This document shows, in pieces, positions 37,129 to 59,090 of a DNA stretch of 59,090 bases (its first letter is position 1; each line of letters starts with the position of its first letter). Below the pieces are notes generated by a model, which saw nothing but the letters and a program-made list of their open reading frames with translations, searched no databases and was not told the origin of the DNA. The DNA is taken from positions 1 through 59,090 of the forward strand of contig DAHVEJ010000003.1 in assembly GCA_027313145.1 (NCBI GenBank), read 5' to 3'. Source of the stretch: Phycisphaerales bacterium (GTDB taxonomy: Bacteria > Planctomycetota > Phycisphaerae > WQYP01). The translations under genes were made by a program, and so were the position numbers.

Positions 37129-37259
37129 GAACTTATTTATTTTATATAAAACCGCAGGCCCCAAACGCTTGCAGAAGAATCCTACGCATCAATGCCCGCT
37201 TGGCCGGCATTGAAAAATTGGATCGCATCGCACAGCAGGGACTCATGTGGCGCAGTTGC

Positions 37260-37785: not shown

Positions 37786-37880
37786 TCCCGCCTGCTTTTT
37801 CGTGTCGCCGATGCTGGCAAGATGCCTGCGGTACGCTGCATTGCATCGCCTAATTGTCCCATTGAAGGACAATCGGAGGA
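37786..37880 (-). repeat. Dispersed repeat, copy A
   Basis: On the minus strand this reads CCTTCAATGGGACAA, TTAGGCG, TGCAATGC, then GCATCTTGCC, GCATCGG, ACACGA and AAAGCAGGCGGGA. The same sequence in the same order occurs on the plus strand at 54909-55004, with about four bases in five identical by eye. It fills most of the gap between the Fe-S carrier and DJ-1-like genes. No protein is encoded; 37590-37785 and 37881-37911 show nothing else. Confidence 0.75.
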
Positions 37881-37911
37881 TATATCCGGTAATCAACCGA
37901 ATTATAAGACT

Positions 37912-38439: not shown

Positions 38440-38544
38440 CAGGCTCTCCTTGGAAATTGAGAGATCAAAAAGAGCAACCCACCGAAATTAACAATGGCGG
38501 GAAGCAAGCATGAAACGCCGCGAAAGACAAGAAACTTTCTTGCT

Positions 38545-38781
38545 TCAATTATGCGAACCACATCCCCCGGCTCCGCAGCAGCAACCGCCGCCTCCAGCAC
38601 CGCCGGGCATCGCCGCACCTGAAACCTGAGCATTAGCCACTGCGAAGACGGAAACTTTACGGATCGTGTTCTTGGACTGGCATTGCGGGCAAAGTGCCTT
38701 TTGATTCGTAGACTGCATAGAAGGCGCAAGATGGTCAAACGTTTTGCCGCAATCTTTGCATTCAAATTCATAAATAGGCAT
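38545..38781 (-). CDS. FmdB-family zinc-ribbon protein
   Basis: 78 residues from ATG 38781 (GGAG seven bases upstream); longer frames upstream are spurious. MPIYEFECKDCGKTFDHL begins the zinc ribbon, with the second pair in LCPQCQSKNTIRK: two CxxC knuckles. The last 25 residues are Gly/Cys-rich (GGAGGGGCCCGAGGCGSHN) and could bind extra metal. The family is named after a putative regulator of formamidase, but its role is generally unknown. Confidence 0.88.
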   Translation of the reverse strand: MPIYEFECKDCGKTFDHLAPSMQSTNQKALCPQCQSKNTIRKVSVFAVANAQVSGAAMPGGAGGGGCCCGAGGCGSHN

Positions 38782-39181
38782 GAGATAACTCCATATACCG
38801 GCCAGTCTATATACACTCACCATACAATTACTAGCATAGGCTCTGCTACGGGGGGAAAGCAAGTCCGCGGGCGGCACGTTCTGCCGGGATCCTGCCTGGT
38901 GCGGTAGCGCCATGGTTTGAAGCGGAACACCGCCGCGGAGAACGCCCCCGTTCCAATATGGCGCGCACCGGGCCACTGGCGACGTGCCCAAGCTTAGCGC
39001 ATCATGAAATGCCACTTCCGCTGCGAACTCAACGCTGCCGCTTTGAGCCAATAAGTCGCGTCGCAATTCTTCGGAATATTCTGCCTGCCGACGGCGGCAA
39101 TTCCGGTTTCGCGTGCCGATGGTTTCCCAGTTGCGAATTATCGTGTAGAATTTCGTTGCGCTCTTAATAGGAGTTTATATC
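38782..39181. other. Divergent intergenic region, no gene seen
   Basis: 400 bp between the FmdB gene (minus) and the exported GH31 gene (plus). I see no coding frame with a ribosome site and no clear repeat or operator. Confidence 0.5.
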
Positions 39182-41590: not shown

Positions 41591-41609
41591 CGCCGAAAAA
41601 GATACTGGG

Positions 41610-44429: not shown

Positions 44430-44794
44430 GATGATCTCCAGATGAAATGGTGCCGGCAGCGATGCGCTGCAAATACCATTTAGCAAACAGATAGGACACG
44501 CGCCACGCAGTATCACGCCGCAGCGCAATCGCGTCAACAGCGCTGCCAACCAGCCACCGGGTTATTACCAAGTTGCTCTATAACGCGACGTTCCGCCAGG
44601 AAGCCAGAAGTCATGCCGGCACGCATTGATCGCAACCCGTAATTATGGCTGGAACAGCGCACTAGTCCCTAAACCAGCGTGATATTTTTCGACAGGCCGG
44701 TGAATTTTTTAAAAATGAACTGAAACGCTCTGCTTTTCGTAATAGTATAGTGTTGTAGACATCAACACGTATATTGCTTAAGGAGGCGTTTCAA
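44430..44794. other. Intergenic region upstream of the IS remnant
   Basis: No gene seen. An AT-rich stretch with TAATAGTATAGT at about 44742 lies just before the transposase fragment and could be its promoter. I could not define insertion-sequence terminal repeats. Confidence 0.35.
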
Positions 44795-45040
44795 GTGAAA
44801 AGAAAAACTCATCAATGGATGGCTTGTCGCGGGCGTCGCATCCGGGATCGCCTGGCCCGCAGACGCTGGAAGGATCAGCCCCATCCCATGCTCCGGGCAG
44901 GCAACATCCGTTATGAACTGGCCCAGCGCGACCGTGCCATCACCTGCGGCGGTATCGGGGCGATGCACCTGCTGGCGCAGCATGTCGGCTTGCCGCAGGC
45001 CATTAACACTACAACGCAACAAATGCTCAAGAACGTATAG
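44795..45040 (+). pseudogene. N-terminal fragment of an IS1380-type transposase
   Basis: GTG 44795 has a textbook AGGAGG eight bases upstream. A basic start (VKRKTHQWMACRGRRIRDRL) is followed by NIRYELAQRDRAITCGGIGA and MHLLAQHVGLPQAIN. This last pattern ('YEL..R..A...GGIGA.H.L...LGLP.AID') is the conserved N-terminus of IS1380-type transposases. The similarity stops after about 75 residues and the frame ends at 45040, where the element has been cut off. The same family's C-terminal tail is at 1-213. Not functional. Confidence 0.65.
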
Positions 45041-45093
45041 TTGGCTGGCCGATGAAGCCTTTCAGGAGCCGTATTTCTGAAAGGATCCCCGGC

Positions 45094-45360
45094 ATGGAAG
45101 CTGAAGCGATTCTGAGAATTCGACCGGCGTTGATGCACTATCTGCACCAGTACGACGATTGTGTCGGTCGCTGCACGGCGCGGCGGCCGATGCACACAAG
45201 CTCTGGCCCAGATGATCTCCCAGATGCTGGTTTGGACGCAACGCCGCAATGTCGCTGCCGAATGCAGCCACCGCAAGCGGACACTTCGACGTTTGCACAC
45301 GCTGGGGTTGAAATTGAAGGACATGATAGTCTGCGATTGGAGTCACTTATAGCGTACTAA
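45094..45360 (+). pseudogene. Remnant of a second transposase type
   Basis: MEAEAILRIRPALMHYLHQY and DDCVGRCTARRPMHT resemble the start of an IS701-like transposase ('RP.L..FL..F.DCF.R..TR..L..Y'). The similarity is lost after about 35 residues, and the rest reads as unrelated or frameshifted sequence. Family assignment is tentative and no ends could be defined. It lies between the IS1380-type fragment and the truncated porter. Confidence 0.35.
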
Positions 45361-45382
45361 TAGCATCACCGCCTCGGTCCGG

Positions 45383-45781
45383 GTGCATGGACATACCCTG
45401 CAAAGCGCCACCGTCCATTTCAGCCATGTCCAAGTGCTGATTCTGCTTATCCGTGTGTTGACATTTACCGCCGCGTTCAACATGGCGTTGGGACCGATTC
45501 CCTGGATTATCATCTCTGAAATTTTTCCTGCGCGAATCCGTGGACGAGCCGCATCGGTTGGCGTGCTGGCACTCTGGGCGGCAACTTTCGTGGTTGCTCA
45601 GACATTTCCCATGTTGAAAAATGACATCGGAGTTACGGGTACTTACTTTATTTATGCGGGCTGTTCTCTGATCACCTTCCTATTTGTGTTGCTGGAGCTA
45701 CCGGAGACCAAAGGCAAGACACTGGAGCAAATTGAGGCGTATTGGCATCATCGACATCCGAGTAAAGCAGTTCAGGATTAG
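45383..45781 (+). pseudogene. C-terminal stub of an MFS sugar porter
   Basis: About 115 recognisable residues form the last three or four membrane helices of a sugar-porter (XylE/GLUT-type) transporter. The pieces are NMALGPIPWIIISEIFPARI, RGRAASVGVLALWAATFVV, GTYFIYAGCSLITFLFVLLE and the family end motif LPETKGKTLEQIE. The IISEIFPxRxRGRA loop is the classic PS00217-adjacent signature. The first eight helices are missing; their place is taken by transposase debris. It cannot transport. It may be the lost importer of an ancestral pentose or hexose operon, now replaced by the FucP-type permease at 50342. Confidence 0.75.
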
Positions 45782-45896
45782 ATTGGAGTGGCCAACAACA
45801 CGAGGTTCTTCCTATTGCCAACTTCGGAAAATCGTGGAAAGCGGCGCAGACGCGATTTGTACAGTTTGCTTTAATCCGGCGGAGTACCCGAAGATA

Positions 45897-45924
45897 TTAC
45901 GAAACAACGTAGTAATTTTACGAA
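45897..45924 (+). promoter_or_regulatory. Candidate operator: TTACGAA direct repeat, 21-bp period
   Basis: TTACGAA at 45897-45903 and at 45918-45924, exactly 21 bp apart, with partial similarity continuing for five bases (ACAAC, GAACC). It is about 115 bp upstream of the first gene of the sugar cluster, where an AraC/XylR-type activator would be expected to bind. The XylR-like gene at 51827 is the likely owner. Confidence 0.45.
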
Positions 45925-46038
45925 GAACCTCAATGACACGCCGCCTGGCAGGTGGTTATGCTAATGAGTATGGATGGTGACAGGCACTATGCAACCTGAC
46001 TTTTTTCGGTTGCCAAGTGCCTTCGTAGGAGAAACATC

Positions 46039-46749
46039 GTGAACCCGATTGTGCAAATTTCATTGGATTTGACAACCATTAATGAAGCATTGTCCACTGC
46101 GGACATGGCGATCCGCGCCGGCGTGGATTACCTGGAGGCCGGCACGCCTTTGATTATCGCCGAGGGGATGAATGGCGTGCGGGCGCTTCGTCGGCGGTTT
46201 CCAAACGTGCCAATCGTGGCGGATTTGAAAACGATGGATGGCGGCTACTTGGAAGCGCAAATGATGGCCCAGGCAGGAGCCACGCATGTGGTGGTTATGG
46301 CCCGTGCCCATGAGGAAACCATCCGCTGTGTGGTCAAGGCGGGGCATGACTACAGCCTGAAGGTTATGGGGGACAACTTGGCGTGTCCGGATATGGTGGC
46401 CGCGGCCAAATCCCTGGAAGATTTGGGATGCGATTATGTCATCCACCACATAGGATATGATGAACGCCGCGGCATTGCGGCGCGCGGGAAGCGTATGCCC
46501 AGTCCGCTGGATCAACTTCGCCAGGTCGTGGCCGCCGTTCGCGTTCCGGTGCAGGCCGTCGGTGGGCTGAGTATCGAGCAGGCGATCCGCGCACCGCAAT
46601 ATGGAGCGCCGCTGGTGGTGTTGGGCGCACCGCTGACCATTGACGCCGATGCTTTTAAGCTTGCCAGTGGTAACATGGAGGAATCGCTTCGGTTGATTTG
46701 TAATAAAGTCCATGCGTATGGTGATGTTGCAACAGGAGTCAGTTCATGA
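46039..46749 (+). CDS. HPS/KGPDC-type keto-sugar-phosphate decarboxylase or lyase
   Basis: 236 residues from GTG 46039 (AGGAG seven bases upstream). A member of the OMP-decarboxylase superfamily. DYLEAGTPLI (E33) and VADLKTMDGG supply the DxKxxD metal and proton-transfer motif (D62, K64, D67). GCDYVIHHIGYDERR and VPVQAVGGLSIEQA, then APLVVLGAPLT, make the phosphate grip. Two reactions share this fold: 3-keto-L-gulonate-6-phosphate decarboxylase (UlaD) and hexulose-6-phosphate synthase. No hexulose-phosphate isomerase is nearby, whereas a UlaG-like lactonase and UlaE-like barrels are, so a decarboxylase role is favoured. First gene of the cluster, overlapping the next by ATGA. Confidence 0.85.
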   Translation: MNPIVQISLDLTTINEALSTADMAIRAGVDYLEAGTPLIIAEGMNGVRALRRRFPNVPIVADLKTMDGGYLEAQMMAQAGATHVVVMARAHEETIRCVVKAGHDYSLKVMGDNLACPDMVAAAKSLEDLGCDYVIHHIGYDERRGIAARGKRMPSPLDQLRQVVAAVRVPVQAVGGLSIEQAIRAPQYGAPLVVLGAPLTIDADAFKLASGNMEESLRLICNKVHAYGDVATGVSS

Positions 46750-47768
46750 ACGAAATGGCGGTGGTTAATTTTGCTCGAACGAAACACGCGGTGGAATTAC
46801 GTTCGGTAAAGCGACCTGATATCGGTCCTCTGGATGTATTGCTAAGGGTTGAAGCGGTGGGCGTGTGCGGCAGCGATCTGCACCAGTGGACAGCTGACCA
46901 CAGCTGGCCGGTAAATTACCCGGTCATCCTAGGCCATGAATTCGCGGGTGTTATTCACGAGATCGGTACGGGCGTGACCGGATGGCAAACGGGCCAGAGG
47001 GTGGTTAGCGAAACCGCCGCGGTAATTGATTTGGACAATCCTATGTCCCGGCAGGGGTTTTACAACTTGGACCCCGGTCGTAAAGGATTTGGTTACGGGG
47101 TAGATGGTGCCATGACTCATTATGTGCGCGTGCCTGCCCGTTGCCTGCACCGGCTGCCGGATAATCTACCCTTGGAAACAGCGGCACTGACTGAACCTTG
47201 CTGTGTTGCGTACAACGCGGTGGTAAACAACGGACGAATTAAGCCGGGAGATCGCATCGTGGTTTTTGGTCCGGGAACCATCGGCATTCTTTGTGCCGCG
47301 ATGGCCCGATTGTGTGGTGCCACGGTGGCCATTGCCGGGTTGGAGCGCGACCGTAAGCGTCTTGAGAAATCGAAAAGCTATGGATGCATTCCAATTATCG
47401 GTGGTTTATCGGAATGGGCCATGTCGGGTGATGGATTGGGGGTCGATGGCGTTATTGATGCGGCCGGCGTTTCCGCAACACTGCAATCCGCACTGCAAAT
47501 AGTCCGTCCCAACGGATGGATCAGCAAGGTGGGATGGGGGCCGCAACCGCTGGGATTTTCGCTGGATCCGTTGGTGCAGAAGAATATCATACTACAAGGC
47601 AGTTTCAGCCACAATTGGCCCATCTGGGAGCGCGTGATAAGCCTGCTGACATCCGGGCAACTCGATGTCAAACCGATCATCGGCGGTATCTGGCCTCTGG
47701 ATCAATGGCAGGAAGCATTTGAAAAAATGCATGGCGGAGAAGTGATCAAAGCCATACTTAAACCGTAA
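46746..47768 (+). CDS. Zinc-dependent alcohol/polyol dehydrogenase lacking structural-zinc cysteines
   Basis: 340 residues in the medium-chain dehydrogenase family; ATG 46746 overlaps the previous stop, with AGGAG seven bases upstream. Catalytic-zinc ligands are C41 (VGVCGSDLH), H64-E65 (LGHEFAGVI) and E150. VVVFGPGTIGILCA is the NAD(P)-binding Rossmann glycine motif. In sorbitol/threonine dehydrogenases, four cysteines after the SET motif bind a structural zinc. Here residues 88-120 (SETAAVIDLDNPM onward) contain none. It probably oxidises a secondary hydroxyl of a sugar, polyol or sugar acid to the keto form used by the upstream decarboxylase; substrate unknown. Confidence 0.88.
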   Translation: MNEMAVVNFARTKHAVELRSVKRPDIGPLDVLLRVEAVGVCGSDLHQWTADHSWPVNYPVILGHEFAGVIHEIGTGVTGWQTGQRVVSETAAVIDLDNPMSRQGFYNLDPGRKGFGYGVDGAMTHYVRVPARCLHRLPDNLPLETAALTEPCCVAYNAVVNNGRIKPGDRIVVFGPGTIGILCAAMARLCGATVAIAGLERDRKRLEKSKSYGCIPIIGGLSEWAMSGDGLGVDGVIDAAGVSATLQSALQIVRPNGWISKVGWGPQPLGFSLDPLVQKNIILQGSFSHNWPIWERVISLLTSGQLDVKPIIGGIWPLDQWQEAFEKMHGGEVIKAILKP

Positions 47769-47786
47769 GTTGACAAGAACTCGACA

Positions 47787-48665
47787 ATGATGAATAAGTT
47801 GCCCTTATTTTCCGTCAGCGAATTTACTACTTGGGATCAGTCCTTTGAGCAGGATATGGCCCTGTATCGCCGCTTGGGTATTACCGGTATTGAAGTATGC
47901 GAACGCAAACTCTCTGCCGACCCGGTGCATGCCCGTGAACAATTGGCGCTGCTGCGCGAAAGTGGATTACGCCTTACCAGCGTCCAGCCCCGCGTGCATG
48001 CTCTTTTTAAGGATTCCATGTGCCCGGATATAGATGATCCAAAGGAGCGGATGCGACGGTATCGGCGGACTATTGATCTGTTTGCAGAAAGTTTTCCTGG
48101 CCAGAATCTTCCGTTGGTAACCATCGGAGGTAATGCTCCAGGCTATAATTTTCGTCTGGCCCATCAAACCGCGCGACAACTGTACGGCGATCTGGCCCGC
48201 TATGCGGCGGATCGCGGTGTGCGGATCATGTTTGAGCCGCTGCATCCGATTTTGATGAATAACGATACTTTCATTTGCTCACTGGATGAAGCGTTACACC
48301 TTATTGACGATATCCATCATCCGCAGTTCGGGCTGATGCTGGATGTCTGGCATATATGGCATGAACAGGATATCACCCGGCGAATCCGGACGTTGGGGCC
48401 GCTCATATTCGGCGTGCATATCTGTGATTGGCCTCGTGAACAGCCGCGCGGACCGGCTGATCGTGTTTTGCCGGGGCGGGGAATTATTGATCTGTCGGCG
48501 TTGCTTGGGGCTATCGAAGCAGCGGGTTACGACGGTGCCTATTGTCTGGAAATTTTCTCGGCACATCAGTGGCCGGATTCGCTGTGGCGTATCGATCCCG
48601 CCCGGGTGCTTGAGGATGGGCGGCAGGGATTTTACAAGGCTTGGAAGGCTCGAATATGCGATTGA
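47787..48665 (+). CDS. Xylose-isomerase-like TIM-barrel sugar isomerase/epimerase 1
   Basis: 292 residues. Members use a divalent metal to isomerise or epimerise sugars, sugar phosphates or inosose-type compounds. Visible features are LGITGIEVCERKLS, PLVTIGGNAPGYN, VRIMFEPLHPILM (metal Glu), FGLMLDVWHIW (metal Asp and His), FGVHICDWPRE (metal His) and GAYCLEIFSAH (metal Glu). The complete metal set argues for an active enzyme. UlaE, IolE and hydroxypyruvate isomerase belong here; none can be chosen by eye. ATG 47787 has only a weak ribosome site. Its last ten bases overlap the SDR start, so the two are translationally coupled. Confidence 0.82.
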   Translation: MMNKLPLFSVSEFTTWDQSFEQDMALYRRLGITGIEVCERKLSADPVHAREQLALLRESGLRLTSVQPRVHALFKDSMCPDIDDPKERMRRYRRTIDLFAESFPGQNLPLVTIGGNAPGYNFRLAHQTARQLYGDLARYAADRGVRIMFEPLHPILMNNDTFICSLDEALHLIDDIHHPQFGLMLDVWHIWHEQDITRRIRTLGPLIFGVHICDWPREQPRGPADRVLPGRGIIDLSALLGAIEAAGYDGAYCLEIFSAHQWPDSLWRIDPARVLEDGRQGFYKAWKARICD

Positions 48666-49432
48666 AAGACAAGGTGATAATCGTCACGGGCAGCACCACC
48701 GGCATTGGTGAAGCCATTGCCCGGCGCTGCATTGCCGAGGGAGCATCTGTCCTGATTCATGGCACGCGGCGCGACGCGGGTGAACAGGTCATTGCGTCCC
48801 TGGGTGCGGCGGCCACCCTGCATATTGACGATCTATCGGAGGCCGGCGCGGCACCGCGCCTGATCGCGGCGGCGCTATCCGCTTTTGGAAAGCTCGACGG
48901 TCTGGTCAATAACGCCGCTTGGCTGGTGCGCAGCAATATTCATACGACCGACGCCGCACTGTTCGATCGCGCCATGGCCATCAATGTGCGTGCGCCACTG
49001 CTGCTGATCAAGGCGGCGATGGAATCCCTTGAAGCCACCCGGGGCTCCGTGCTCAATATTGGTTCTATCAACGCTTATACCGGTGAAGCCAACCAGCTCG
49101 CCTACAGCGTTTCCAAGGGGGCGTTGATGACGTTATCCCGCAATTTAGCCGACGCACTGGGACGACAGGGCGTGCGCGTGAATCATTTTAACGTAGGCTG
49201 GGTCCTTACGCCTAATGAATATCAACTGAAAATATCAGAGGGGCTCAATCCTCACTGGCCGGAGCATATTCCCGCCGCGTACGCGCCGTCAGGCCGCATT
49301 CTCACCCCGGAGCACATCGCCGGGGCGGCGGTGTACTGGCTAAGTGACGAAAGCCGCCCCATTTCCGGCAGTGTTCTGGAACTGGAACAATATCCTGTCA
49401 TAGGCCGCAATCCACTGAAGGAGGAAAAATAA
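48656..49432 (+). CDS. Short-chain dehydrogenase/reductase
   Basis: 258 residues from ATG 48656 (GGAAGG upstream), overlapping the preceding gene. Classical SDR: VIIVTGSTTGIGEAIA is the nucleotide-binding TGxxxGIG, LDGLVNNAAW the NNAG-like motif, SVLNIGSINAY the catalytic Ser, and AYSVSKGALM the YxxxK pair. The C-terminal LTPEHIAGAAVYWLSDESRP and ISGSVLELEQ are typical of sugar, polyol and gluconate 5-dehydrogenase-like members. Cofactor preference is not evident. With the Zn-dehydrogenase it gives the cluster two redox steps, perhaps oxidising one position and reducing another. Confidence 0.9.
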   Translation: MRLKDKVIIVTGSTTGIGEAIARRCIAEGASVLIHGTRRDAGEQVIASLGAAATLHIDDLSEAGAAPRLIAAALSAFGKLDGLVNNAAWLVRSNIHTTDAALFDRAMAINVRAPLLLIKAAMESLEATRGSVLNIGSINAYTGEANQLAYSVSKGALMTLSRNLADALGRQGVRVNHFNVGWVLTPNEYQLKISEGLNPHWPEHIPAAYAPSGRILTPEHIAGAAVYWLSDESRPISGSVLELEQYPVIGRNPLKEEK

Positions 49433-50340
49433 TGCCACAATTGGCCGCATTTCCCAAAGCATTTCTCGATAGTTTATGTGTCGATGGGTCTATACCGCTG
49501 CGGCAGTGGATCGACATGTCGGCCACTCTGGATGTGGACGGATTGGAGTTTTACAGTGGCTTTCTCGATCTCAAAGACATCCGGAATTGGCCCATGTTTC
49601 GCAACATGGTGGAGGATCAGGGCCGAAGTATTCCCATGCTGTGCTGCTCACCAGATTTTACGCATCCCGATCCGGAGTTTCGGAAACGGCAGATTGAATT
49701 GGAAAAACATTGGATCGATATGACCGTCGGCCTGGGTGGGAGGTTTTGCCGCGTGCTTTCCGGCCAGCGCCGGCCGGAGGTGACGCGGAACGATGGTTTG
49801 CGCTACGCCACGGAGTGCATACAACAATGTCTGCCCTACGCGGCGGATCGCGGAATTACGCTGATTCTGGAAAATCACTACAAGGACGGCTATTGGACAT
49901 TCCCCGAATTCGCCCAGAAAATGGATGTTTTTTGCGAGTTGATCGGTTGCATTACAGCACCTAATTTCGGCGTAAACTATGATCCGAGCAATACCATTTT
50001 CGCGGGTGAAGACCCCTTGGAACTCCTGCGCCGAGTCAAAGACCGCGTTGTCACCATGCACGCCAGCGACCGCTATCTGGCACATGGAACCATCGAAGAT
50101 CTGCGCCGCCAGGAGGATGTGATCGGCTACGCCAAACTTCTGCGCCATGGTGTGATCGGCCAGGGGTTAAATGATTACGACGCCATCTTTACGGAATTGC
50201 GGTCGGTCGGCTTTGACGGCTGGATCAGCATCGAAGACGGTGTCGACGGCATGGAGCAATTGCGGCAAAGCGTGATTTTTCTGCGTGATAAAATACGCGC
50301 CCACTGGCCGGGGTTGGAAACCGTAGGAAAGGTAGTTTAG
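49432..50340 (+). CDS. Xylose-isomerase-like TIM-barrel sugar isomerase/epimerase 2
   Basis: 302 residues; ATG 49432 shares its A with the SDR stop codon, with AGGAGG upstream. Barrel and metal motifs are VDGLEFYSGFLDL, SIPMLCCSPDFTHPDPE, FCRVLSGQRRPEV, ITLILENHYKDGYW (metal Glu), FGVNYDPSNTIFAGEDP (metal Asp), VVTMHASDRYL (metal His) and DGWISIEDGVDGM (metal Glu). It is clearly paralogous in fold to the barrel at 47787 but differs in every loop, so the two probably act on different intermediates. The exact reaction is unknown. Confidence 0.82.
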   Translation: MPQLAAFPKAFLDSLCVDGSIPLRQWIDMSATLDVDGLEFYSGFLDLKDIRNWPMFRNMVEDQGRSIPMLCCSPDFTHPDPEFRKRQIELEKHWIDMTVGLGGRFCRVLSGQRRPEVTRNDGLRYATECIQQCLPYAADRGITLILENHYKDGYWTFPEFAQKMDVFCELIGCITAPNFGVNYDPSNTIFAGEDPLELLRRVKDRVVTMHASDRYLAHGTIEDLRRQEDVIGYAKLLRHGVIGQGLNDYDAIFTELRSVGFDGWISIEDGVDGMEQLRQSVIFLRDKIRAHWPGLETVGKVV

Positions 50341-50341
50341 G

Positions 50342-51775
50342 ATGGCGATGAACGTGAGTACTGTTTGCACGGTGGCTGATACGGCCGAACAGCCGGTAAA
50401 TCGTACCTACCGCGGTCCGTTTGCCATCATGACCATCCTATTTTTCATGTGGGGGTTCATGACGGTCTGGAATGATATTCTCATTCCACGTTTCAAAGAA
50501 GCCTTTACGCTGAATTACTTCCAAGTGATGCTGATCCAATTTGCATTTTTTGGGGCGTACACTTTCGGTTCCTTGATCTACTACTTGATTTCCATGTTCT
50601 GGGGCGATCCGATTAACCGTATCGGCTATAAGAACGGCGTCATCATCGGCCTGCTGATTGCGGCGGCGGGAAGCATTCTGTTTTACCCCGCGGCGATATT
50701 AATATCCTATCCGTTTTTCCTTATGGCGCTGTTTATCGTGGGCATCGGATTTGCCATGCTGCAAATTGCCGCCAATCCATACATTACTATTTTAGGGCCG
50801 GAGCGCACCGCTTCCAGTCGGCTGAATCTCTCGCAGGCCTTTAATTCCTTCGGCACCACCATCGGCCCGATTATTGCGGGCTGGTTGATTTTTAAAGTGT
50901 TTAATGGGCCGGGAAGTCATGGTGCCCAGTCGGTGAAAATTCCGTATCTTTGCGTAGGCGGTGTATTCCTGATACTGGCGGTCTGTTTTATGTTTGCCCA
51001 TTTGCCGAATTTTACGAATACCGAACACGTCACACGCGGCGCTGGTGCCCTAAAACACCCGCATACCGTACTGGGGATGGTCGCTATATTCATGTATGTT
51101 GGCGGTGAGGTTTGCGTGGGCAGTTCCATTATCAATTTTCTGAATCTGCCCAGGCTCGGCGGACTTAGCCATGAAGCCGCCTCCAAGTTTCTGGCATTTT
51201 ACTGGGGAGGATTAATGATTGGCCGTTTCATGGGGGCATTCGCGTTAAGCGATGTCCGAAGGTGGCTGCGAAACACGGTTGTGGTATTACTCCCGGTGGC
51301 GGCTTTTGTCACGATCTGGGTGCTCTCCGGGCAGGCGAACGCACTGCACTATGGTGTGATGCTGGCGGTGATGCTCGTGGCATTTTTTCTTGGATCAGCA
51401 AGCCCACAGCGGATGTTGGCGTTGTTCAGCTTTATTATTATCGCCCTGCTGCTGACGGGTATGTTGTCCGCCGGCGCTGCGGCGATATGGACCATACTGG
51501 GTATTGGTCTATTTGATTCCGTCATGTGGTCCAACATCTTTTCGCTGGCAATTGAGGGGCTTGGCGCACTGAAAAGCCAAGCGGCATCGTTGCTGATGAT
51601 GTCGGTATTCGGCGGTGCGCTGATGCCGCCATTGCAAGGTATTGTCGCGGATCATTTCGGAATTCAGTTCTCATTTATTGTTCCGATGATATCGTATGTG
51701 TATATCGCATTTTATGGATTGTATGGCTACCGCGCGGGGCGGCGGACACAAGCGGTTCCTGCTGGGACTGCATAG
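50342..51775 (+). CDS. FucP-type (FHS family) sugar:proton symporter
   Basis: 477 residues from ATG 50342, one base after the previous stop. A 12-helix major-facilitator protein of the fucose-galactose-glucose:H+ symporter branch. Signature regions are ILFFMWGFMTVWNDILIPRF, FAFFGAYTFGSLIYYLI, GVIIGLLIAAAGSILFYPAA, MLQIAANPYITILGPE and SSRLNLSQAFNSFGTTIGP. The 'FFxWGFxTxxND' and 'NPYxxxLGP' patterns define the family. It is the only intact importer in the window and presumably brings in the cluster's substrate. L-fucose, glucose/galactose or a related sugar are all possible. Confidence 0.92.
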   Translation: MAMNVSTVCTVADTAEQPVNRTYRGPFAIMTILFFMWGFMTVWNDILIPRFKEAFTLNYFQVMLIQFAFFGAYTFGSLIYYLISMFWGDPINRIGYKNGVIIGLLIAAAGSILFYPAAILISYPFFLMALFIVGIGFAMLQIAANPYITILGPERTASSRLNLSQAFNSFGTTIGPIIAGWLIFKVFNGPGSHGAQSVKIPYLCVGGVFLILAVCFMFAHLPNFTNTEHVTRGAGALKHPHTVLGMVAIFMYVGGEVCVGSSIINFLNLPRLGGLSHEAASKFLAFYWGGLMIGRFMGAFALSDVRRWLRNTVVVLLPVAAFVTIWVLSGQANALHYGVMLAVMLVAFFLGSASPQRMLALFSFIIIALLLTGMLSAGAAAIWTILGIGLFDSVMWSNIFSLAIEGLGALKSQAASLLMMSVFGGALMPPLQGIVADHFGIQFSFIVPMISYVYIAFYGLYGYRAGRRTQAVPAGTA

Positions 51776-51826
51776 CCTGTTTCCCAGCCATGGTCCGGCG
51801 GAAAAAATTATTGCGTGAGTTTAACA

Positions 51827-53023
51827 ATGCGTTCAAAACAAATGCTGACCGTGGCCTTGATCATTGAATCCGGACGCGCCTTTGGCCGCGGATTGTTACG
51901 TGGAATCGCCCGTTACGCCCGCACGCAAGGCAACTGGTCTATCGTGTACCACCCATGGGAATGGGATGATAAAACACCACGCTGGCTCATGCAGGCTAGA
52001 TGTGACGGTGTCATTGCGCGTATCGACTCCGTTGCACTGCTTCATGCGTTGCAGCGACTGAAGGTTCCTGTGGTCGACGTTCGTCGGAAATTCCGCACGC
52101 CGGGGATACCCATGGTCGGCAGCGAGTACCGCCTCATCGCCCAACTGGCCGCCGATCATTTGCGCGAGAGGGGATTCCGTAATTTTGCATATTGCGGCTA
52201 CGCCGGAGTAGACTATTCAGCCCGGCGTCGCGATGATTTCTCCGATTATCTCGGTAAACATCATTATAAAACGCTGATCTATGAAGGAGGCACGCCGCAT
52301 GTCACCGCGACGTGGGAGCGGGAATCCGCCGCCATGTACCACGAACGGGAACTCGGTGCGTGGCTGGCAAAACTTCCCAAGCCCATCGGTCTGATGGCAT
52401 GTAACGACATGCGCGGGCGACAAGTTCTTAATGCCTGCCGTATCCGCGATATTACGGTCCCTGACGAGGTGGCGGTTATCGGAGTGGATAATGATGAGGT
52501 GCTTTGCGATTTGGCTGATCCTCGGCTTAGCAGCGTCATTCCGGCCACGGATCGAATCGGATACCAGGCCGCGACGTTATTAGATGATATGATGCGAGGC
52601 ACTCGGTATCTATCTCAGGAAGTCTGTATTGCACCACTGGGCGTAGCGACGCGGCGATCCACTGATGTTCTGGCGGTGGAAGATCCCCGGGTGGCAATGG
52701 CGCTTCGTTTTATTCGTGACCATGCCTGTGAAGGTATTACTGTCGAAGATGTGCTGAACGATCTTAGCACTAATCATTCCATGGAAATGTCACGCAGTAC
52801 GCTTGATCACCGCTTTATTGAAATTTTGGAGCATTCTCCAAAGGTGGAAATAATGCTGGTACGACTCCAACGCATGAAGCAACTGCTGGTGGACACAGAT
52901 TGGACCTTGCCGGAAATTGCTGCGCGGGTGGGAATTCAGCATGCCGAATATTTGAGCACGTTGTTCAAAAGCAAGTTTGGTCAGACGCCGGGAGAATTCC
53001 GCCGATCTATGCGGCATCCATAA
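51827..53023 (+). CDS. XylR/AraC-type sugar-sensing regulator 2
   Basis: 398 residues from ATG 51827 (GTG 51815 and ATG 51842 are alternatives; none has a strong ribosome site). As in XylR, a LacI-like effector domain (LIIESGRAFGRGLLRGIARY, RCDGVIARID, YRLIAQLAADHLRERGFRNF, GLMACNDMRGRQVLNACR, VAVIGVDNDEVLCDLADPRL) is followed by a C-terminal AraC double helix-turn-helix (SRSTLDHRFIEILEHSP, WTLPEIAARVGIQHAEYLST, FKSKFGQTPGEFRR). It is about 25-30% like the regulator at 25773 by eye, so it is a paralogue with a different effector. It sits inside the sugar cluster between permease and kinase, and the TTACGAA repeat before the cluster is its candidate target. Confidence 0.88.
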   Translation: MRSKQMLTVALIIESGRAFGRGLLRGIARYARTQGNWSIVYHPWEWDDKTPRWLMQARCDGVIARIDSVALLHALQRLKVPVVDVRRKFRTPGIPMVGSEYRLIAQLAADHLRERGFRNFAYCGYAGVDYSARRRDDFSDYLGKHHYKTLIYEGGTPHVTATWERESAAMYHERELGAWLAKLPKPIGLMACNDMRGRQVLNACRIRDITVPDEVAVIGVDNDEVLCDLADPRLSSVIPATDRIGYQAATLLDDMMRGTRYLSQEVCIAPLGVATRRSTDVLAVEDPRVAMALRFIRDHACEGITVEDVLNDLSTNHSMEMSRSTLDHRFIEILEHSPKVEIMLVRLQRMKQLLVDTDWTLPEIAARVGIQHAEYLSTLFKSKFGQTPGEFRRSMRHP

Positions 53024-53056
53024 TAAATAACACCGTTGGTATTGAGGAAACTAGCC

Positions 53057-53977
53057 TTGTACAAGCATAAAGCCACGGAGCCGACCTTAATCGGCATCGG
53101 CAAGATTCTATGGGATCAACTTCCAATGGGGCGGAAACTCGGTGGCGCGCCGGCTAATTTTGCCTACCATGTTCAGGTGTTGGGGTCGCATGCCACCGTC
53201 ATCAGTGCTGTCGGAAAGGATGAAGCAGGTAAAGATATTCTGAAAGCTATGGAGCAGCTCGGACTCAACCGTAAGTTTGTCGCGCTGGATAGTCAACATC
53301 CCACCGGAATCGTAACAGTGAGCATTGATAACCAAGGCATTCCAGCCTACAGCATCCGTGAAAATACCGCATGGGATTTTATATCTTTTCATCCGGAGAT
53401 GGAATCTCTGGCGCATACGGCGGATGTGGTCTGCTTTGGATCGCTATGCCAGCGATCTCCGGAATCCCGTAGAACAATACAGAGTGTTCTCGGCGCTACC
53501 CGGAAGCACTGCAAACGTATTTTCGACATCAATCTGCGGCAATCTTATTATTCACAATCGGTGATTGAAGAAAGTCTGCAATTATCAAACGTTCTTAAAA
53601 TCAACGATGACGAACTCAATATTCTGACGAAAATGCTGGACCTGCGCGAAAGCACATCAAACCAGATTACACAACTGTTTCGGATGTTTCCGCTGGAACT
53701 GATAGCTCTGACACGCGGCGAACATGGTGCAGTTGTATACACGCCATCGGCAATATCCGAATGCAGCGGCTTCCCGGTAGTCGTTGTCGATACAGTGGGT
53801 GCTGGCGATGCCTACACGGCGGCTCTGGCCTTGGGACTTCTGGCCGGAGATTCTCTCGATGATATTAATCGCCGGGCCTGCTGTCTGGCGGCGTTTGTCT
53901 GTTCGCGACAGGGAGCTACGCCGGAACTACCAACGGAACTTGCATCAAAACTTTTTGTAACAGATATAGGAGGTTAA
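53057..53977 (+). CDS. PfkB-family sugar kinase (fructokinase-like)
   Basis: 306 residues from TTG 53057, preferred because GAGG lies nine bases before it; TTG 53036 and 53042 are earlier in-frame codons. LIGIGKILWDQLPMGRKLGG and APANFAYHVQVLGSHA form the substrate loop as in fructokinases. VVVDTVGAGDAYTAALALG is the ATP and catalytic-Asp signature, and RIFDINLRQSYYS is the usual DxNxR strand. It phosphorylates a keto sugar or keto acid with ATP. Within the cluster it would make the phosphate required by the decarboxylase. Ends three bases before the lactonase start. Confidence 0.88.
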   Translation: MYKHKATEPTLIGIGKILWDQLPMGRKLGGAPANFAYHVQVLGSHATVISAVGKDEAGKDILKAMEQLGLNRKFVALDSQHPTGIVTVSIDNQGIPAYSIRENTAWDFISFHPEMESLAHTADVVCFGSLCQRSPESRRTIQSVLGATRKHCKRIFDINLRQSYYSQSVIEESLQLSNVLKINDDELNILTKMLDLRESTSNQITQLFRMFPLELIALTRGEHGAVVYTPSAISECSGFPVVVVDTVGAGDAYTAALALGLLAGDSLDDINRRACCLAAFVCSRQGATPELPTELASKLFVTDIGG

Positions 53978-53980
53978 TGG

Positions 53981-54796
53981 ATGCCAATTGGACGTGACCT
54001 TATCGACGACATCGACCAATTCTTGCCGAAACAAAATGAACTGGGTATCTGGTGGCTCGGGCAACATAGCTTCGTTTTGAAGATCGCGGATAAAATCATT
54101 TATCTGGATCCGTTCCTCAGCGGCGTCGAAGGGCGACAAGTGGCACCGCTGCTGGAAGCCTCGCAGATTCACCATGCTTATGTGATTTGCGGTTCGCATG
54201 ATCATGCCGACCATATTGACCGTCCCGTCTGGCCAGCGATGGCGATGGCGGCACCAGATGCGAAATTCGTCGTGCCCGAACTGCTGCGTTTGAGTTTGGC
54301 ACGAGATCTCAGCATAACTCCAGATCGCTTCGTGGGCCTCAATGACGGCCAAACCGCGGATATTGGGGCAGTACGCGTTAGCGCCATTGCGGCGGCACAT
54401 GAACTGCTGGCTCCCGACCCAGTGAGCGGTCAGTATCCTTGTTTGGGATTCATTATCGAGGCTGCAGGCTGGACGATCTATCACGCTGGCGATACGTGTT
54501 TATATGAAGGTATGACCACAAAACTGCGGCGATGGCAGCACGATCTAATGATTTTGCCGATCAATGGCCGTGATGCGAAACGTCACGCCGCCGGGATTAT
54601 AGGTAACATGACTTACCAAGAGGCGGCCGACCTCGCCGGTGCCTTACGACCGCGCTGGGTAATACCGGCACACTACGAGATGTTCGCATCTAACAGCGTC
54701 GATCCCCGTGATTTCGTGGAATTCTGCCGAGTCAAATATCCCGCAATTCAAACCCATGTCTGTATGCACGGGGATCGCCTGGTATTGTGCAAATGA
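53981..54796 (+). CDS. UlaG-like metallo-beta-lactamase-fold lactonase
   Basis: 271 residues from ATG 53981 (AGGAGG seven bases upstream). WWLGQHSFVLKIADKIIYLD and GSHDHADHID (H73, H75, D77, H78) supply the HxHxDH metal site. IAAAHELLAPD and WTIYHAGDTCLYEG supply the later His and Asp ligands. LPINGRDAKRHAAGIIGNMT, then ALRPRWVIPAHYEMF, match UlaG, the L-ascorbate-6-phosphate lactonase. UlaG is longer (about 350 residues), so this is a compact relative. It would open a sugar lactone or lactone phosphate; the substrate is not proven. It is the last gene of the cluster. Confidence 0.85.
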   Translation: MPIGRDLIDDIDQFLPKQNELGIWWLGQHSFVLKIADKIIYLDPFLSGVEGRQVAPLLEASQIHHAYVICGSHDHADHIDRPVWPAMAMAAPDAKFVVPELLRLSLARDLSITPDRFVGLNDGQTADIGAVRVSAIAAAHELLAPDPVSGQYPCLGFIIEAAGWTIYHAGDTCLYEGMTTKLRRWQHDLMILPINGRDAKRHAAGIIGNMTYQEAADLAGALRPRWVIPAHYEMFASNSVDPRDFVEFCRVKYPAIQTHVCMHGDRLVLCK

Positions 54797-54908
54797 GCGA
54801 CTGGTCGAGGAAGTGAATACAGACAACCGTTCGCTTGGAAGTATACACCACGAAACCGGCTCCCATGGAAGCACCGGGAAATGCGCCAATCTTGATCGCG
54901 TGGATTAT

Positions 54909-55004
54909 ACTCCAATCGGCCTTCAATGGGACAAATTAGGCGGTGCAATGCGTTGTACCGTAGACATCTTGCCTGCATCGGGAACACGACAAAAGCAGGC
55001 GGGA
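54909..55004 (+). repeat. Dispersed repeat, copy B
   Basis: Plus-strand counterpart of the repeat at 37786-37880, in inverted orientation relative to it, 17 kb away. It ends in GCAGGCGGGA, which here extends into a GCAGGCGGGACGCCTGC palindrome. It lies just after the lactonase gene and contains no gene. Confidence 0.75.
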
Positions 55005-55228
55005 CGCCTGCGGTATTTACGCCGTCCTTGCCTTCGTGACTGAGTTTCATCAATGGCCGCGAGGAGTATAGACCGGAATTTTGGCGAGAAAAACACATAA
55101 CACCTTTTTAAATAACGATTTATATCGATTTTCGGATTCTTGGCATTGGAACAAGAACCATTGAAAATCAAGGAAATTTGCGTTTTTTTACATGGGTGCA
55201 TATTCCCGCCAAAAAACGCCCTGGAAAT

Positions 55229-55300
55229 TCACTAAAAGCAATGACATCAAGGGTTTTATCGTAAAAAAATCAGATTTTTCGGGCTAAACTCCAGTTTAGG
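55229..55300 (+). repeat. Two-palindrome direct repeat, copy 1
   Basis: Contains AAAAATCAGATTTTT followed by CTAAACTCCAGTTTAG. The same order of blocks recurs at 55440-55514. It lies in an AT-rich, gene-free tract between the sugar cluster and the serine recombinase. Confidence 0.6.
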
Positions 55301-55439
55301 TTTTGCGAGGCGTTACAGCTTTCACCGGACGAAATTGCACAAGGTGCCTCGAAAACAAGCGGTTTTGTCCGCAATTCATCAGAAGGATTGGTAGAAAATA
55401 GCCAGAAATCGTTGTAAATCATGATTCCTTATCTCGAAC

Positions 55440-55514
55440 TCACGTTAAAAACACAACACCATCAGGGGTTTTCTCTTCTGAAAACGAAAATTTCGCGGCT
55501 AAACTCCGGTTTGG
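55440..55514 (+). repeat. Two-palindrome direct repeat, copy 2
   Basis: Contains CGAAAATTTCG followed by CTAAACTCCGGTTTGG. The first palindrome differs in sequence from copy 1 but is again self-complementary, and the second is nearly identical. Offset from copy 1 is 211 bp. The rest of 55005-55550 shows no gene. Confidence 0.6.
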
Positions 55515-55554
55515 ATGGCAGCTCGAAAAAAACATTTCTCAACCCTAAAATATA

Positions 55555-55773
55555 TCATGGAATATGCGATGCAGGCGGCATATTGTCATCGGATAATGGC
55601 ACGGTTTGATCATTTATTTTTCGCCATGGAGATTCCAGATTCATTAAATGCGATGGGTGTCTATTAGAAAGCCTCCGTGCTCTGCGGCGACCATGAACCG
55701 CAAAAATCACCGCGAACACCAGAGGCTGTGCGGCCACAATCCATAACAATGTCATCATATTTTCTGACCCCAT
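55555..55773 (-). CDS. Possible small membrane protein
   Basis: A 72-residue frame with one strong hydrophobic helix (MMTLLWIVAAQPLVFAVIFA) followed by an Arg-rich stop-transfer segment (VHGRRRARRL). There is no clear ribosome site and no recognisable family. It sits downstream of the recombinase on the same strand and may be cargo or chance. Confidence 0.25.
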   Translation of the reverse strand: MGSENMMTLLWIVAAQPLVFAVIFAVHGRRRARRLSNRHPSHLMNLESPWRKINDQTVPLSDDNMPPASHIP

Positions 55774-55910
55774 TTGGACGCATAAGACATCCCCAGTCCG
55801 AAACACAATATCCGGTATTACTGAGGGGCAACGACAGCTAACTTGTTCACACTTCCCGTAGTAATGTTTATCGGACAGACTGGCGGAAAAGGTTTAAAGA
55901 TTGCACCAGT

Positions 55911-57869
55911 TCACGCGGCCAGTGGTAAGCGGCGGCACTTGACGCACCCATCGTGACGAACGTCCTCTTTCCTACAAGTAAAAACAGCCAAAATAACGCT
56001 ATTTTCGGGGTGGGTCTCGATGAGTGGTTTGTATACAGATAGCGCATCGAGACCCACCTGCGGCGAAGACTTGCAGGCTTGAGCCATCCAAGATGGCAAG
56101 GCAAAGACGATTTCCACCTCGCGGGTCTCCAAGTCAACTTCCATCCGTTCAACCAGTAGCTCCAGCAATTTAGCAATTCCGGGTATATCCATGGGATCAA
56201 GTTTCTGGCCAAATTCTTGCAAATCATTGGCTAGTTTTTCAATTGAAACTTTGGGGTCACTACGTGGCTGTTGCGGATCGGTCTGGGCATACTTCACTCG
56301 CTGTTCCATGTCGCTTATTTTTCTCTTGATTTCGGCGACTTTGCGGCTTAATGCATCATCTTCGTTTTCTACATTGACATCATCGGCCAATAGGGCAAGC
56401 TGGTTGCGAAAACGCTTCATTTCCTTGCGATATTGCTCCACATTCTGCCGTTCGGGTTGCTGCTTTTGCTCATTGGCGAGTATCTGTTTTAGCCCCTCCA
56501 TGAGGTCTGGTTTGTTTAGTAGCGTTGCGCGAAGGATTTCCATAACAGCCTGTTCCAACGGTTCAGCGGGGATACGATGTCGGAGAAGATTATCGCTTTT
56601 TGGTACCGACTGGGCGCGTGAGACTGCGTAATACTGATGCGTATGGCCTTTTTTGCCGCTCTGTCTGCCCGTCATCGGGTGGTGTCCCTGCTTGCTATGG
56701 AGTATGCGTTTGAGGAGATATTGACTTTGCAGGTGCCGATCACGCTGGGGATGGGGCGATTTCCCATCGGCTATGGAATCCAGATACCGTTCAATTCTGG
56801 CCGTGGCCAATTCGCGGATTTCGGTTGGCAGAAATTCCACCAACTGCGGCTGCGCCTGCTCCACCCATTGATCGCGCGTTCTTCGTCGCTGCCGGGGCCG
56901 CCGACGATTGGCCAGTTCGGCCATATCCACTTCTGATGGAATGGGTTGCGCTTCCCCACCATTGAAGAAGATCCCTGTTTTTCGGCGATAGCGAATCCCT
57001 CGGCCTACATAGATGGGGTTACGGAGAATGTGTTGTACCGCACTGGTATTCCATTCCCGTCCAGAGGGAGATGCGATTCCAGTATCGTTAAGATGTTTTG
57101 CAATTTTATGGGGACTTTTATGTTGAACATCGTGAAGATGAAAAATCAGAACGACCACCGCCACCAACTTGGGATCTCCGGGAATTAGCCGTACCTGCTC
57201 GCTTTTCTGTTTGAGATAATGATTCGGGATTCCCCGGTGCGTGTTACGCCCGAACCGACGCATAAGCTCACCGGTCTTGGCATTCCATTGCTCTTGCGTA
57301 CCATCGGGTAGATTGCGTATAAAATGTTGATCTTCATTATTTTCGGAATACATGCGGTCTATTCCGAATGGGGGCTTGCGGCTATACGGTGAACGACCGG
57401 CCAAAAAGCTATTGGTGGTGCCCGACGTGGCACCATAGGCAATTCGTTTGACCGACTCCCTCGCAGCACTGAATAGAAAGGAGATGTACATTTCGGCCAT
57501 CTCGTTATCCACAAGGATGTTTTCGGCTAAAAAGTAGACCATAATGCCCGCTGCGCGCAGATCATAGATAAGTTTCTGGCCATGCCCTTGACCGGCACGG
57601 GTGAACCGTGTTGCATCCTGCACGATGAGCAGTTGGAAGTCATCGCGTGTTTTTTTCCGTTGGATGATTGTGTCAATATCGGTGCGGTTTCCGGGAATCG
57701 ATCCGGTCACACCCTCCAGTAACTCTTCATGGACGACATAAAGTTGGTTTTCACGGATACAGTCCTCCGTGGTCAGCCCTTGGTTCGTGATGCTGGTGGC
57801 GACCTGCGCCGAACTACTGCAACGCTTTAGTACGACGCAGTGCATACCCTTAATCTTTGGCTGTAGCAT
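55911..57869 (-). CDS. Large serine recombinase
   Basis: 652 residues from ATG 57869 with GGAG seven bases upstream; the frame extension to 58016 overlaps the 65-residue gene and is rejected. The resolvase N-terminal domain has VVLKRCSSSAQVATSITNQG, with the catalytic Ser in the CSSS run. FQLLIVQDATRFTRAGQGHG carries the catalytic Arg, and GIMVYFLAENILVDNEMAEM and SAARESVKRIAYGATSG follow. The recombinase domain includes KIAKHLNDTGIASPSGREWN and VQHILRNPIYVGRGIRY. A long coiled coil lies at about 520-580. Such enzymes integrate and excise mobile DNA at att sites. The usual zinc-ribbon cysteine cluster is not evident, apart from a C-terminal CVKCRR after CRKEDVRHDG. Gene order suggests one transcript with the two genes upstream. 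Confidence 0.92.
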   Translation of the reverse strand: MLQPKIKGMHCVVLKRCSSSAQVATSITNQGLTTEDCIRENQLYVVHEELLEGVTGSIPGNRTDIDTIIQRKKTRDDFQLLIVQDATRFTRAGQGHGQKLIYDLRAAGIMVYFLAENILVDNEMAEMYISFLFSAARESVKRIAYGATSGTTNSFLAGRSPYSRKPPFGIDRMYSENNEDQHFIRNLPDGTQEQWNAKTGELMRRFGRNTHRGIPNHYLKQKSEQVRLIPGDPKLVAVVVLIFHLHDVQHKSPHKIAKHLNDTGIASPSGREWNTSAVQHILRNPIYVGRGIRYRRKTGIFFNGGEAQPIPSEVDMAELANRRRPRQRRRTRDQWVEQAQPQLVEFLPTEIRELATARIERYLDSIADGKSPHPQRDRHLQSQYLLKRILHSKQGHHPMTGRQSGKKGHTHQYYAVSRAQSVPKSDNLLRHRIPAEPLEQAVMEILRATLLNKPDLMEGLKQILANEQKQQPERQNVEQYRKEMKRFRNQLALLADDVNVENEDDALSRKVAEIKRKISDMEQRVKYAQTDPQQPRSDPKVSIEKLANDLQEFGQKLDPMDIPGIAKLLELLVERMEVDLETREVEIVFALPSWMAQACKSSPQVGLDALSVYKPLIETHPENSVILAVFTCRKEDVRHDGCVKCRRLPLAA

Positions 57870-58047
57870 AAATGTGCTCCTCCTGGCTGATACGCTGACG
57901 AACCCATTCCGCCAGAAACGTATTGACAGCCATCGTGAATCGCCGTTCTTCCTCTTGCGTTTGGAGTCGAACGCTGATCCTACATTTACCTCTGTTCGAG
58001 AATTGAGGTACAACATCCTTTATTTGGTTTTCGTTTTGATCAGTCAT
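57850..58047 (-). CDS. 65-residue accessory protein of the recombinase
   Basis: ATG 58047 has GAGG seven bases upstream, and the gene overlaps the recombinase start by 20 bp, a sign of translational coupling. The sequence is polar with a basic strand (RGKCRISVRLQTQEEERRF) and a helix (TMAVNTFLAEWVRQRISQEE). This could be a small ribbon-helix-helix-like DNA-binding fold, but no family is recognised. A directionality or regulatory role is inferred from position only. Confidence 0.6.
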   Translation of the reverse strand: MTDQNENQIKDVVPQFSNRGKCRISVRLQTQEEERRFTMAVNTFLAEWVRQRISQEEHIYATAKD

Positions 58048-58051
58048 GGGA

Positions 58052-58978
58052 TTACCTCAATTCTGGCCAAGTCTGAAATACTGCTGCCTCCAGAGTATCG
58101 CAGGGAACTATGCGTACCGATTCCGACGAGGTGAACTCTGCCGCTGACAAAGGATGGAGAAATAATGTCACCGGAGTGGCGATGTCGCCAGCATCAATCG
58201 CGGCTTTAAGCGACTGACTAATGGCCGGGGCAATAGCTCGGACATTCCTGAATAGATCAATTTCCCCGATGTAAATGTTTTTTCCGGGGACAGCTTTTTG
58301 GATGTACGATCCGATCAATGCAATGCATAGCGGCAAACCCAAGATTGGGTTGTACTGTGCGCTGCCGGGAAGGCGGCAGTTAATCGAATAATTCAACTCC
58401 CCAAAGTCCATATCTTTCATCTGGCTGATGCAACTCACGAGTTGTTCAATTTCTTTTCGCGGTAGGCCCGGTGCGGTCATTCGCCCGCGTGAACCATCAC
58501 CGGGAATCGTGGCCGAAGCCTGTAATTCCAGTTCACCCGTTCCCGCCCCGGCGTATGTACGGGCCATCGCAGGTTTCGCCTCGCAGTGCGGTGCTGGCTC
58601 CAAACGAATGGTCACAGGATCAAAACGCAAAGGCATCGGCTGGAGTAGGGGTGCGCCGTAACGATTCTTGCGTACCGCGAGCAACGAGAATTGCATCGCC
58701 CGGCGCAGGATGAGGCTCGTGTCAACACTATGTTCCAGAGATTTCGGGCCAGCGAGATCACCGCGTTTTGTTTGATGACACAATAAAATCGTGGTAATGG
58801 CATGTTCTTCACACATCCGGGCAAAATCTAGCACTTTTGCATAGCTTTTGGTGGCGCTGGCAGCCAAGCCCTGGCCCTGAATACTGTCGAGGACAATGAG
58901 CTTCACCCCGTGATATGCCCCTCCCGGCGCAAGCACTTGACGCATTAAAAAATCCGGAAGTGCCGTCACGTCAAACAA
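58052..58978 (-). CDS. Divergent RadA/Sms-like protein, C-terminal part
   Basis: 308 residues from a TTG at 58978 without a ribosome site; the true gene must begin beyond the right edge. GVKLIVLDSIQGQGLAA is the RecA-fold Walker B. ILLCHQTKRGDLAGPKSLEH resembles 'HVTKEGxIAGPxxLEH' of RadA, and AVRKNRYGA is the RadA KNRFG motif. The C-terminal 110 residues match the Lon-like domain (GLPLCIALIGSYIQKAVPGK, NIYIGEIDLFRNVRAI). RadA promotes branch migration in recombination. Walker A and the zinc finger are off the window. The same frame continues to the edge but is broken by TGA at 59003-59005. It ends five bases before the 65-residue gene, which suggests it belongs to the recombinase module. Confidence 0.7.
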   Translation of the reverse strand: MFDVTALPDFLMRQVLAPGGAYHGVKLIVLDSIQGQGLAASATKSYAKVLDFARMCEEHAITTILLCHQTKRGDLAGPKSLEHSVDTSLILRRAMQFSLLAVRKNRYGAPLLQPMPLRFDPVTIRLEPAPHCEAKPAMARTYAGAGTGELELQASATIPGDGSRGRMTAPGLPRKEIEQLVSCISQMKDMDFGELNYSINCRLPGSAQYNPILGLPLCIALIGSYIQKAVPGKNIYIGEIDLFRNVRAIAPAISQSLKAAIDAGDIATPVTLFLHPLSAAEFTSSESVRIVPCDTLEAAVFQTWPELR

Positions 58979-59090
58979 ACTGTGATCGACATGTACATTG
59001 GATCAGGGTCTTTTAGTACTACAGCGCAATATTTGCTCAAGCTTTAGCCGTATGTGGACCGATAGATCAGTCATTGAACAAGGAGGTTCG

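Follow-up and report, generated by a model that had tools for sequence, protein, structure and literature searches.

Introduction

RadA (RadA/Sms, TIGR00416) is regarded as a conserved housekeeping motor. It is a DnaB-type helicase (PMC5512693), and in E. coli mutants of the zinc finger (C28Y), the Walker A motif and the KNRFG motif have all been shown to lose branch migration (PMC4786428). In pneumococcal RadA, T215 and K216 contact DNA and, among DNA-binding ATPases, the Lon-like domain has been described in RadA and ComM only (PMC11612176).

Several described systems resemble the locus reported here. Islander-type tRNA islands (PMC4383910) carry an integrase by a tRNA gene, a repeat of the displaced tRNA 3' end and metabolic cargo; the islands described below share these features and add a Gam/RadA-like/recombinase cassette at the integrase end. 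With phage Mu Gam (PF07352) and the phage recombination clusters that have Sak4 they share a DNA-end-binding protein encoded near a RecA-superfamily ATPase, but the ATPase of the islands is of the full RadA type with a Lon-like domain rather than Sak4 or an annealase. SCC elements have, ahead of the large serine recombinases (LSRs), either a hexameric helicase and a small protein that binds ssDNA (pattern 1) or an operon with a helicase (pattern 2), and the origin lies near the helicase gene (PMC7581432). SCC (SCCmec) and the present cassette share the order of ring helicase, small protein and LSR, with an LSR that is distantly CcrB-like; they differ in that the cassette has a RadA-type helicase instead of the MCM-like Cch/Cch2, a Gam gene, tRNA sites in place of rlmH, a second integrase and another host phylum. 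In the open literature, with subscription journals outside the coverage, no description of a Gam/RadA-like/integrase combination was found.

Results

Genes at the right end of the window

The window, i.e., the whole stretch of 59,090 bp that was analyzed, is the entire contig C269 of a draft assembly that comprises 4.43 Mb in 335 contigs. At its right end, a RadA-like gene, a gene for a 65-aa protein and a gene for a 652-aa LSR follow each other on the minus strand, with the following features:

58052 to 59003, minus strand: RadA-like ATPase, C-terminal two thirds (Walker B DSIQ, KNRYG, Lon-like domain); TIGR00416 match, E 1.5e-14
57850 to 58047, minus strand: 65-aa protein, translationally coupled; relatives directly upstream of LSR genes elsewhere
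55911 to 57869, minus strand: LSR, 652 aa (PF07508, PF00239, PHROG 95); frame open back to 58016
55656 to 55910: module tail, 255 bp past the LSR stop, still homologous to G006
58994 to 59003: 10-bp target-site duplication, ATCCAATGTA on the gene strand, repeated at the end of contig C29
59004 to 59090: end of an inserted transposable element, starting CAGGGTCTTTTAGT, which recurs at other contig ends

Three minus-strand genes lying within five bases of each other or overlapping had been reported here, and this is borne out by a 4-bp gap between the RadA-like stop and the start of the 65-aa gene and by a 20-bp overlap of the latter with the LSR gene. DNA homology to the same-genus genome G006 spans window positions 55656 to ~59002 and stops at both ends; position 55656 is the boundary of the unit shared with G006. 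Gene order and spacing are identical in G006 and also in G101, which has a related small gene, and dN/dS values of 0.05 (RadA-like) and 0.08 (LSR) indicate strong purifying selection. Recurring order and spacing, together with this selection, argue that the three genes are not a chance pattern of open reading frames.

The LSR matches the Recombinase (PF07508, E 9e-13) and Resolvase (PF00239, E 2e-6) families, both over the cut-off, has a weak zinc ribbon and belongs with the integrases of PHROG 95 (E 1.6e-48); its catalytic Ser18 and the flanking arginines are invariant in 6 homologs (alignment A2). Matches of the LSRs to NCBIfam CcrB are weak (E 2e-4; E 1.8e-9 for the G005 LSR), the CcrB and CcrC models scoring 20 and 16 bits, far under the cut-off of 900, and a search against plasmids gave three weak matches and nothing more. 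Full-length homologs (28-94% identical) follow the Gam and RadA-like genes in six genomes. LSRs lacking a RadA-like gene were also found in G175, G277, G232 and G343, and the LSR of G111 is accompanied only by Gam, which indicates that the cassette is modular; the RadA-less LSRs are often accompanied by a tyrosine integrase (G175, G277 and the second and third copies in G388). Contig C121 of the same genome as the window (L041:6213-6922) carries a 710-bp LSR 3'-end fragment with 96% DNA identity beside a rhamnulokinase gene, and this fragment is the remnant of a second element copy.

Relatives of the 65-aa protein are encoded directly upstream of the LSR in G006 and G101, and more distant ones in G091, G004 and G232. 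The protein matches no Pfam, NCBIfam or PHROG family over threshold, and a YicC-like (Pfam) assignment was rejected because the match was under the cut-off. It may be a directionality factor or a loader.

An extension of the sequence to the right had been proposed in search of the Walker A motif. The 5' part of the RadA-like gene with this motif is indeed missing from the window, but the gene does not merely run off the contig, since the homology ends at ~59002, at the inserted element. Beyond the right end, the missing half-gene with the Walker A motif GSPGGGKS was located at the end of contig C29 (L140, to 12669). The 10-bp target duplication, ATCCAATGTA, is present on both contigs, and so is the inverted repeat, CAGGGTCTTTTAGT; the junctions read ATCCAATGTA-CAGGGTCTTTTAG... 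on C29 and ...CTAAAAGACCCTG-ATCCAATGTA-CATGTC on C269, and the frame matches that of the intact homolog. Target duplication, matching inverted repeats and frame together indicate that the RadA-like gene was split by an insertion. The link from C29 through the transposon to C269 is predicted from these three features. The element end (59013-59090) recurs at ~16 other contig ends of the genome, and the contig stops here because the element repeats broke the assembly. A longer element copy on contig C222 has a transposase-like frame, IS701-like as judged by eye.

Since the gene is split, the RadA-like copy of this genome is very probably inactive. Its window part is 90% identical in amino acids to the intact 459-aa G006 protein. 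Gam has decayed to a fragment on C29, and the cassette of this genome has decayed, with Gam deleted, the RadA-like gene split and the LSR still open.

A family of RadA paralogs

A check for a second, canonical radA had been proposed, and one is present on contig C51, with a zinc finger and 512 bits vs 54 bits for the window gene; in a tree, the C51 protein groups with the RadAs of its genus. As judged from sequence, the window protein is a paralog of canonical RadA. Ten intact relatives were found, all in Planctomycetota (G006, G005, G101, G091, three in G050, G388, G616 and G476); among 397 genomes sampled from the class, seven have the family, the present one included, and 2 more were found among 392 sampled phylum-wide. 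Family members score 332-710 bits and canonical RadAs at most 130; in a scan of genome contigs, two of the 80 loci listed were true family members and the others were canonical RadA. The ten paralogs form one long-branched clade against 92 canonical RadAs (SH-aLRT 100).

The C4 zinc finger (CxxC before Walker A) is found in 0 of 10 paralogs vs 69 of 69 canonical RadAs. KNR[FYH]G is kept in all ten, and DSIQG is invariant across the 8 rows of alignment A1. Walker A has the form GxxxxGK[ST] in six paralogs and GxPGSRK[ST], with arginine replacing the glycine before the lysine, in four (G091 and the three of G050; L046, L047, L048, L049). Three intact paralogs score 98.8, 91.1 and 78.5 bits against TIGR00416 and the window part 54 bits, all under the equivalog cut-off of 403. 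The family profile matches solved RadA structures (5lkm/8rxc, E 5e-30) and aligns through residue 451 of 5lkm; this alignment and a structure model both indicate that the C-terminal Lon-like domain is kept. The best PDB matches of the model (pLDDT 82.9), which was built from an input alignment that included canonical RadAs, are RadA 8rxc and 5lkm over the full length, with 419 columns for 8rxc. The invariant T/K of the HxTK loop (A1) are the counterparts of the DNA-contacting T215/K216, and PHROG DnaB-like helicases match the ATPase core of the paralogs (E 1e-11 to 1e-14).

Compared with RadA/Sms, the paralogs thus share the RecA-like core, Walker A/B, KNRxG, the Lon-like domain and the T/K of the HxTK loop, and differ by the absent C4 zinc finger, scores of 78-99 bits vs 403, a separate clade and a location on mobile islands in addition to the canonical radA. 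The protein is no plain RadA, as the zinc finger is absent. The window protein had no match in IMG/VR, and alignment A1 had one (28%); the tblastn matches in phages all stayed under 30% across most of the protein, with no phage version of the clade seen.

Gam and integrase partners

No other partner of the RadA-like gene is as constant as a Mu-Gam-like gene (PF07352; PHROG "Mu Gam-like end protection"), which adjoins it at 9 of 9 Phycisphaerae loci. Gam is intact at seven of these (G005, G101, G091, G388 and three in G050) and decayed at two (G006 and C29 of the present genome); the decay at two loci that keep a RadA-like gene indicates that the pair is non-obligate. The G005, G101, G091 and G388 proteins score above the PF07352 gathering threshold and the three from G050 below it (16.5-24.4 bits), the latter being 36-44% identical to the G101 protein and clearly homologous. 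Each Phycisphaerae locus also has an integrase, either an LSR or a tRNA-associated tyrosine integrase, and in some cases both; tyrosine integrases replace the LSR in G050, the third locus of which has a remnant only. By comparison, none of these types of Gam, LSR and tyrosine integrase was found by tblastn at 103 control loci, which span 1.2 Mb and are almost all canonical radA loci.

The notion of the three genes as an element by themselves was dropped once Gam and the tRNA integrases appeared. The order RadA-like gene, small gene and LSR does recur in other genomes (G006, G101), but the unit is larger, and three genes are too narrow a definition.

Two family members, in G616 and G476, have neither Gam nor LSR beside them and are surrounded by defence genes (AbiEii; HmaA/DrmD-like helicase). 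The G616 gene (L210:6680-10207) directly follows an AbiEii-type gene pair and precedes genes for a coiled-coil protein and a transposase. The G476 gene (L211:6087-16301) lies between an HmaA/DrmD-like SNF2 helicase and three partial N-terminus copies of a protein assigned by eye to the DUF1156 type; the arrangement gives the impression of an exchange of gene ends.

In three genomes, the first gene of the cassette (L140:11702-12016, L043:10321-10632 and L044:13193-13504) codes for a conserved, acidic protein of 104 aa that belongs to no known family. Upstream of the cassette, five TCTAG sites with near-constant spacing lie within ~130 bp in the present genome (L140:11518-11648), G006 and G005, the 59-kb window having 10 such sites in all; this cluster is a candidate operator or set of iterons. 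TCTAG also occurs near the tyrosine integrase starts of the present genome and G006. No convincing comparable repeat cluster was found near the cassette in G101, G388, G091 and G050.

tRNA islands

The genes at the integrase end are tRNA-Gly (C29), tRNA-Leu (G006), tRNA-Pro (G005) and two tRNA-Ser (G101, G388). The displaced tRNA 3' end forms a 14-bp direct repeat (E 0.04) in the ~18.5-kb island of G101 and a 21-bp direct repeat (E 4e-6) in the 17.8-kb island of G388. The 50-kb island at tRNA-Leu of G006 (C31:311-50686; L195, L196, L043) has a 320-bp direct repeat (99.4%) that comprises the integrase 3' end in addition to that of the tRNA, possibly reflecting tandem islands. As assigned by eye, its cargo is ~30 genes of polysaccharide degradation and regulation, that of G388 is a sulfate/cysteine and chromate-transport set, and no phage structural genes were recognized in the G006, G388 and G101 islands.

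The genomes compared are mostly multi-contig drafts. For mobility, G006 provides the strongest test. Core DNA of the present genome and G006 is 96-100% (~97%) identical. It is colinear at 97.6% identity over 8.9 kb (window 35772-44665) and reaches 100% in the trmD region; for the C29 flank the value is 96.3%, and there the match breaks off within tRNA-Gly, past the 43-bp 3' half. The module is 88% identical and sits at different tRNAs, and dS between the two genomes is 1.23 for the RadA-like gene and 0.36 for the LSR. A module at 88% and at another tRNA against a core at ~97% indicates that the modules were acquired horizontally and separately and are mosaic, and the low dN/dS indicates that both genes were under selection until recently. 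The claim of a mobile element is thereby upheld, as the module moves between genomes.

A repeat of tRNA-Gly that would mark the far end of the island was absent from the window and the genome, nor did the joined flanks, used as a query, reveal a clean empty site. Colinearity with G006 breaks at window position 44665 and within tRNA-Gly on C29, the two flanks lying on different G006 contigs; positions 44666-55655 hold sugar-catabolism genes, which may be cargo of the same island. G006 contig C38 (L226 near 6874) has only the 43-bp 3' half of tRNA-Gly, beside unrelated genes, and the present genome has the whole tRNA; this site is probably another island at the same tRNA.

Discussion

The comparisons above show zinc-finger-less, monophyletic RadA paralogs that are carried by Phycisphaerae mobile islands beside Gam, an LSR and/or a tRNA-targeting tyrosine integrase. 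The original prediction of a recombinase-linked, non-housekeeping RadA was right, in that the genome has another radA, the neighbours are not housekeeping genes and the recombinase is present in relatives.

As to function, the chances are about even that these genes represent the recombination cassette of a tRNA-integrated island, in which Gam would shield ends, the RadA-like ring would perform RecA-dependent branch migration and the recombinases would perform site-specific integration. Where excision or entry into a new cell leaves island DNA linear or broken, Gam would coat its ends against host nucleases. A RadA-like hexamer on D-loops formed by host RecA would then drive branch migration, allowing the island DNA to be repaired, joined to or exchanged with homologous DNA, while the LSR, possibly with the 65-aa protein as directionality factor, and the tyrosine integrase would carry out the site-specific steps. 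The activity of the RadA-like protein is predicted, and the branch-migration reading is weakened because E. coli RadA needs its zinc finger (PMC4786428), which this family lacks, and because four members carry the altered Walker A (GxPGSRK). The family would thus need another loading route or have another task. The expectation of an element with its own recombination helper was right as to a RadA-like paralog on mobile islands, but the zinc finger is absent, the copy is split here and the partners extend beyond the LSR.

A bolder form of this explanation, which we put forward tentatively and consider somewhat doubtful, is a new class of island recombination machine, in which a zinc-finger-less RadA ring and a Ku-like Gam taking the role of the zinc finger would supply islands that bear two site-specific recombinases with a homologous-recombination pathway of their own, e.g., to capture or exchange large metabolic gene clusters.

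The RadA-like ring could instead be a DnaB-like initiator helicase that copies the excised circle in an SCC-type replication module, with the 65-aa protein as its small partner, analogous to LP1413, and the TCTAG sites as origin iterons. The gene order of SCC, the weak CcrB matches of the LSRs, the DnaB-type nature of RadA itself together with the PHROG match, and the TCTAG cluster in three genomes are consistent with such a module, but the Lon-like domain and KNRxG are RadA features, no gene adjoining the cassette was recognized as a primase or polymerase, the TCTAG cluster was found at three same-genus loci only and could be an operator, and Gam suits end protection better than circle replication. 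With respect to Cch/Cch2, ccr recombinases and rlmH integration, the cassette falls outside SCC, and we consider this replication role unlikely. That the Gam/RadA-like pair is defence or repair cargo beside integrases, with no role in island movement, would fit the G616 and G476 paralogs as well as the LSRs without RadA and the G111 LSR with only Gam; this is quite improbable given that the RadA-like gene lies in the integrase-proximal block, on the same strand as Gam, at 9 of 9 Phycisphaerae loci and shares the orientation of the LSR wherever one is present (6 of 6 genomes). A functionless remnant with a mere RadA-like pseudogene describes the C269 copy, with its transposon-split gene, deleted Gam and fragmentary second LSR, but is very improbable for the family, which has intact homologs elsewhere and kept dN/dS low up to the recent split.

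The interest lies in the paralog family rather than in the broken C269 copy. The family represents a clade of RadA relatives without a part held to be essential, on mobile DNA beside a gene for an end-protecting Gam. If active, these proteins would offer a natural test of the role of the zinc finger and would mean that islands carry homologous-recombination helpers besides integrases. The cassette is also the mark of one family of tRNA islands, by which genes for polysaccharides and other metabolic genes are moved among Phycisphaerae.
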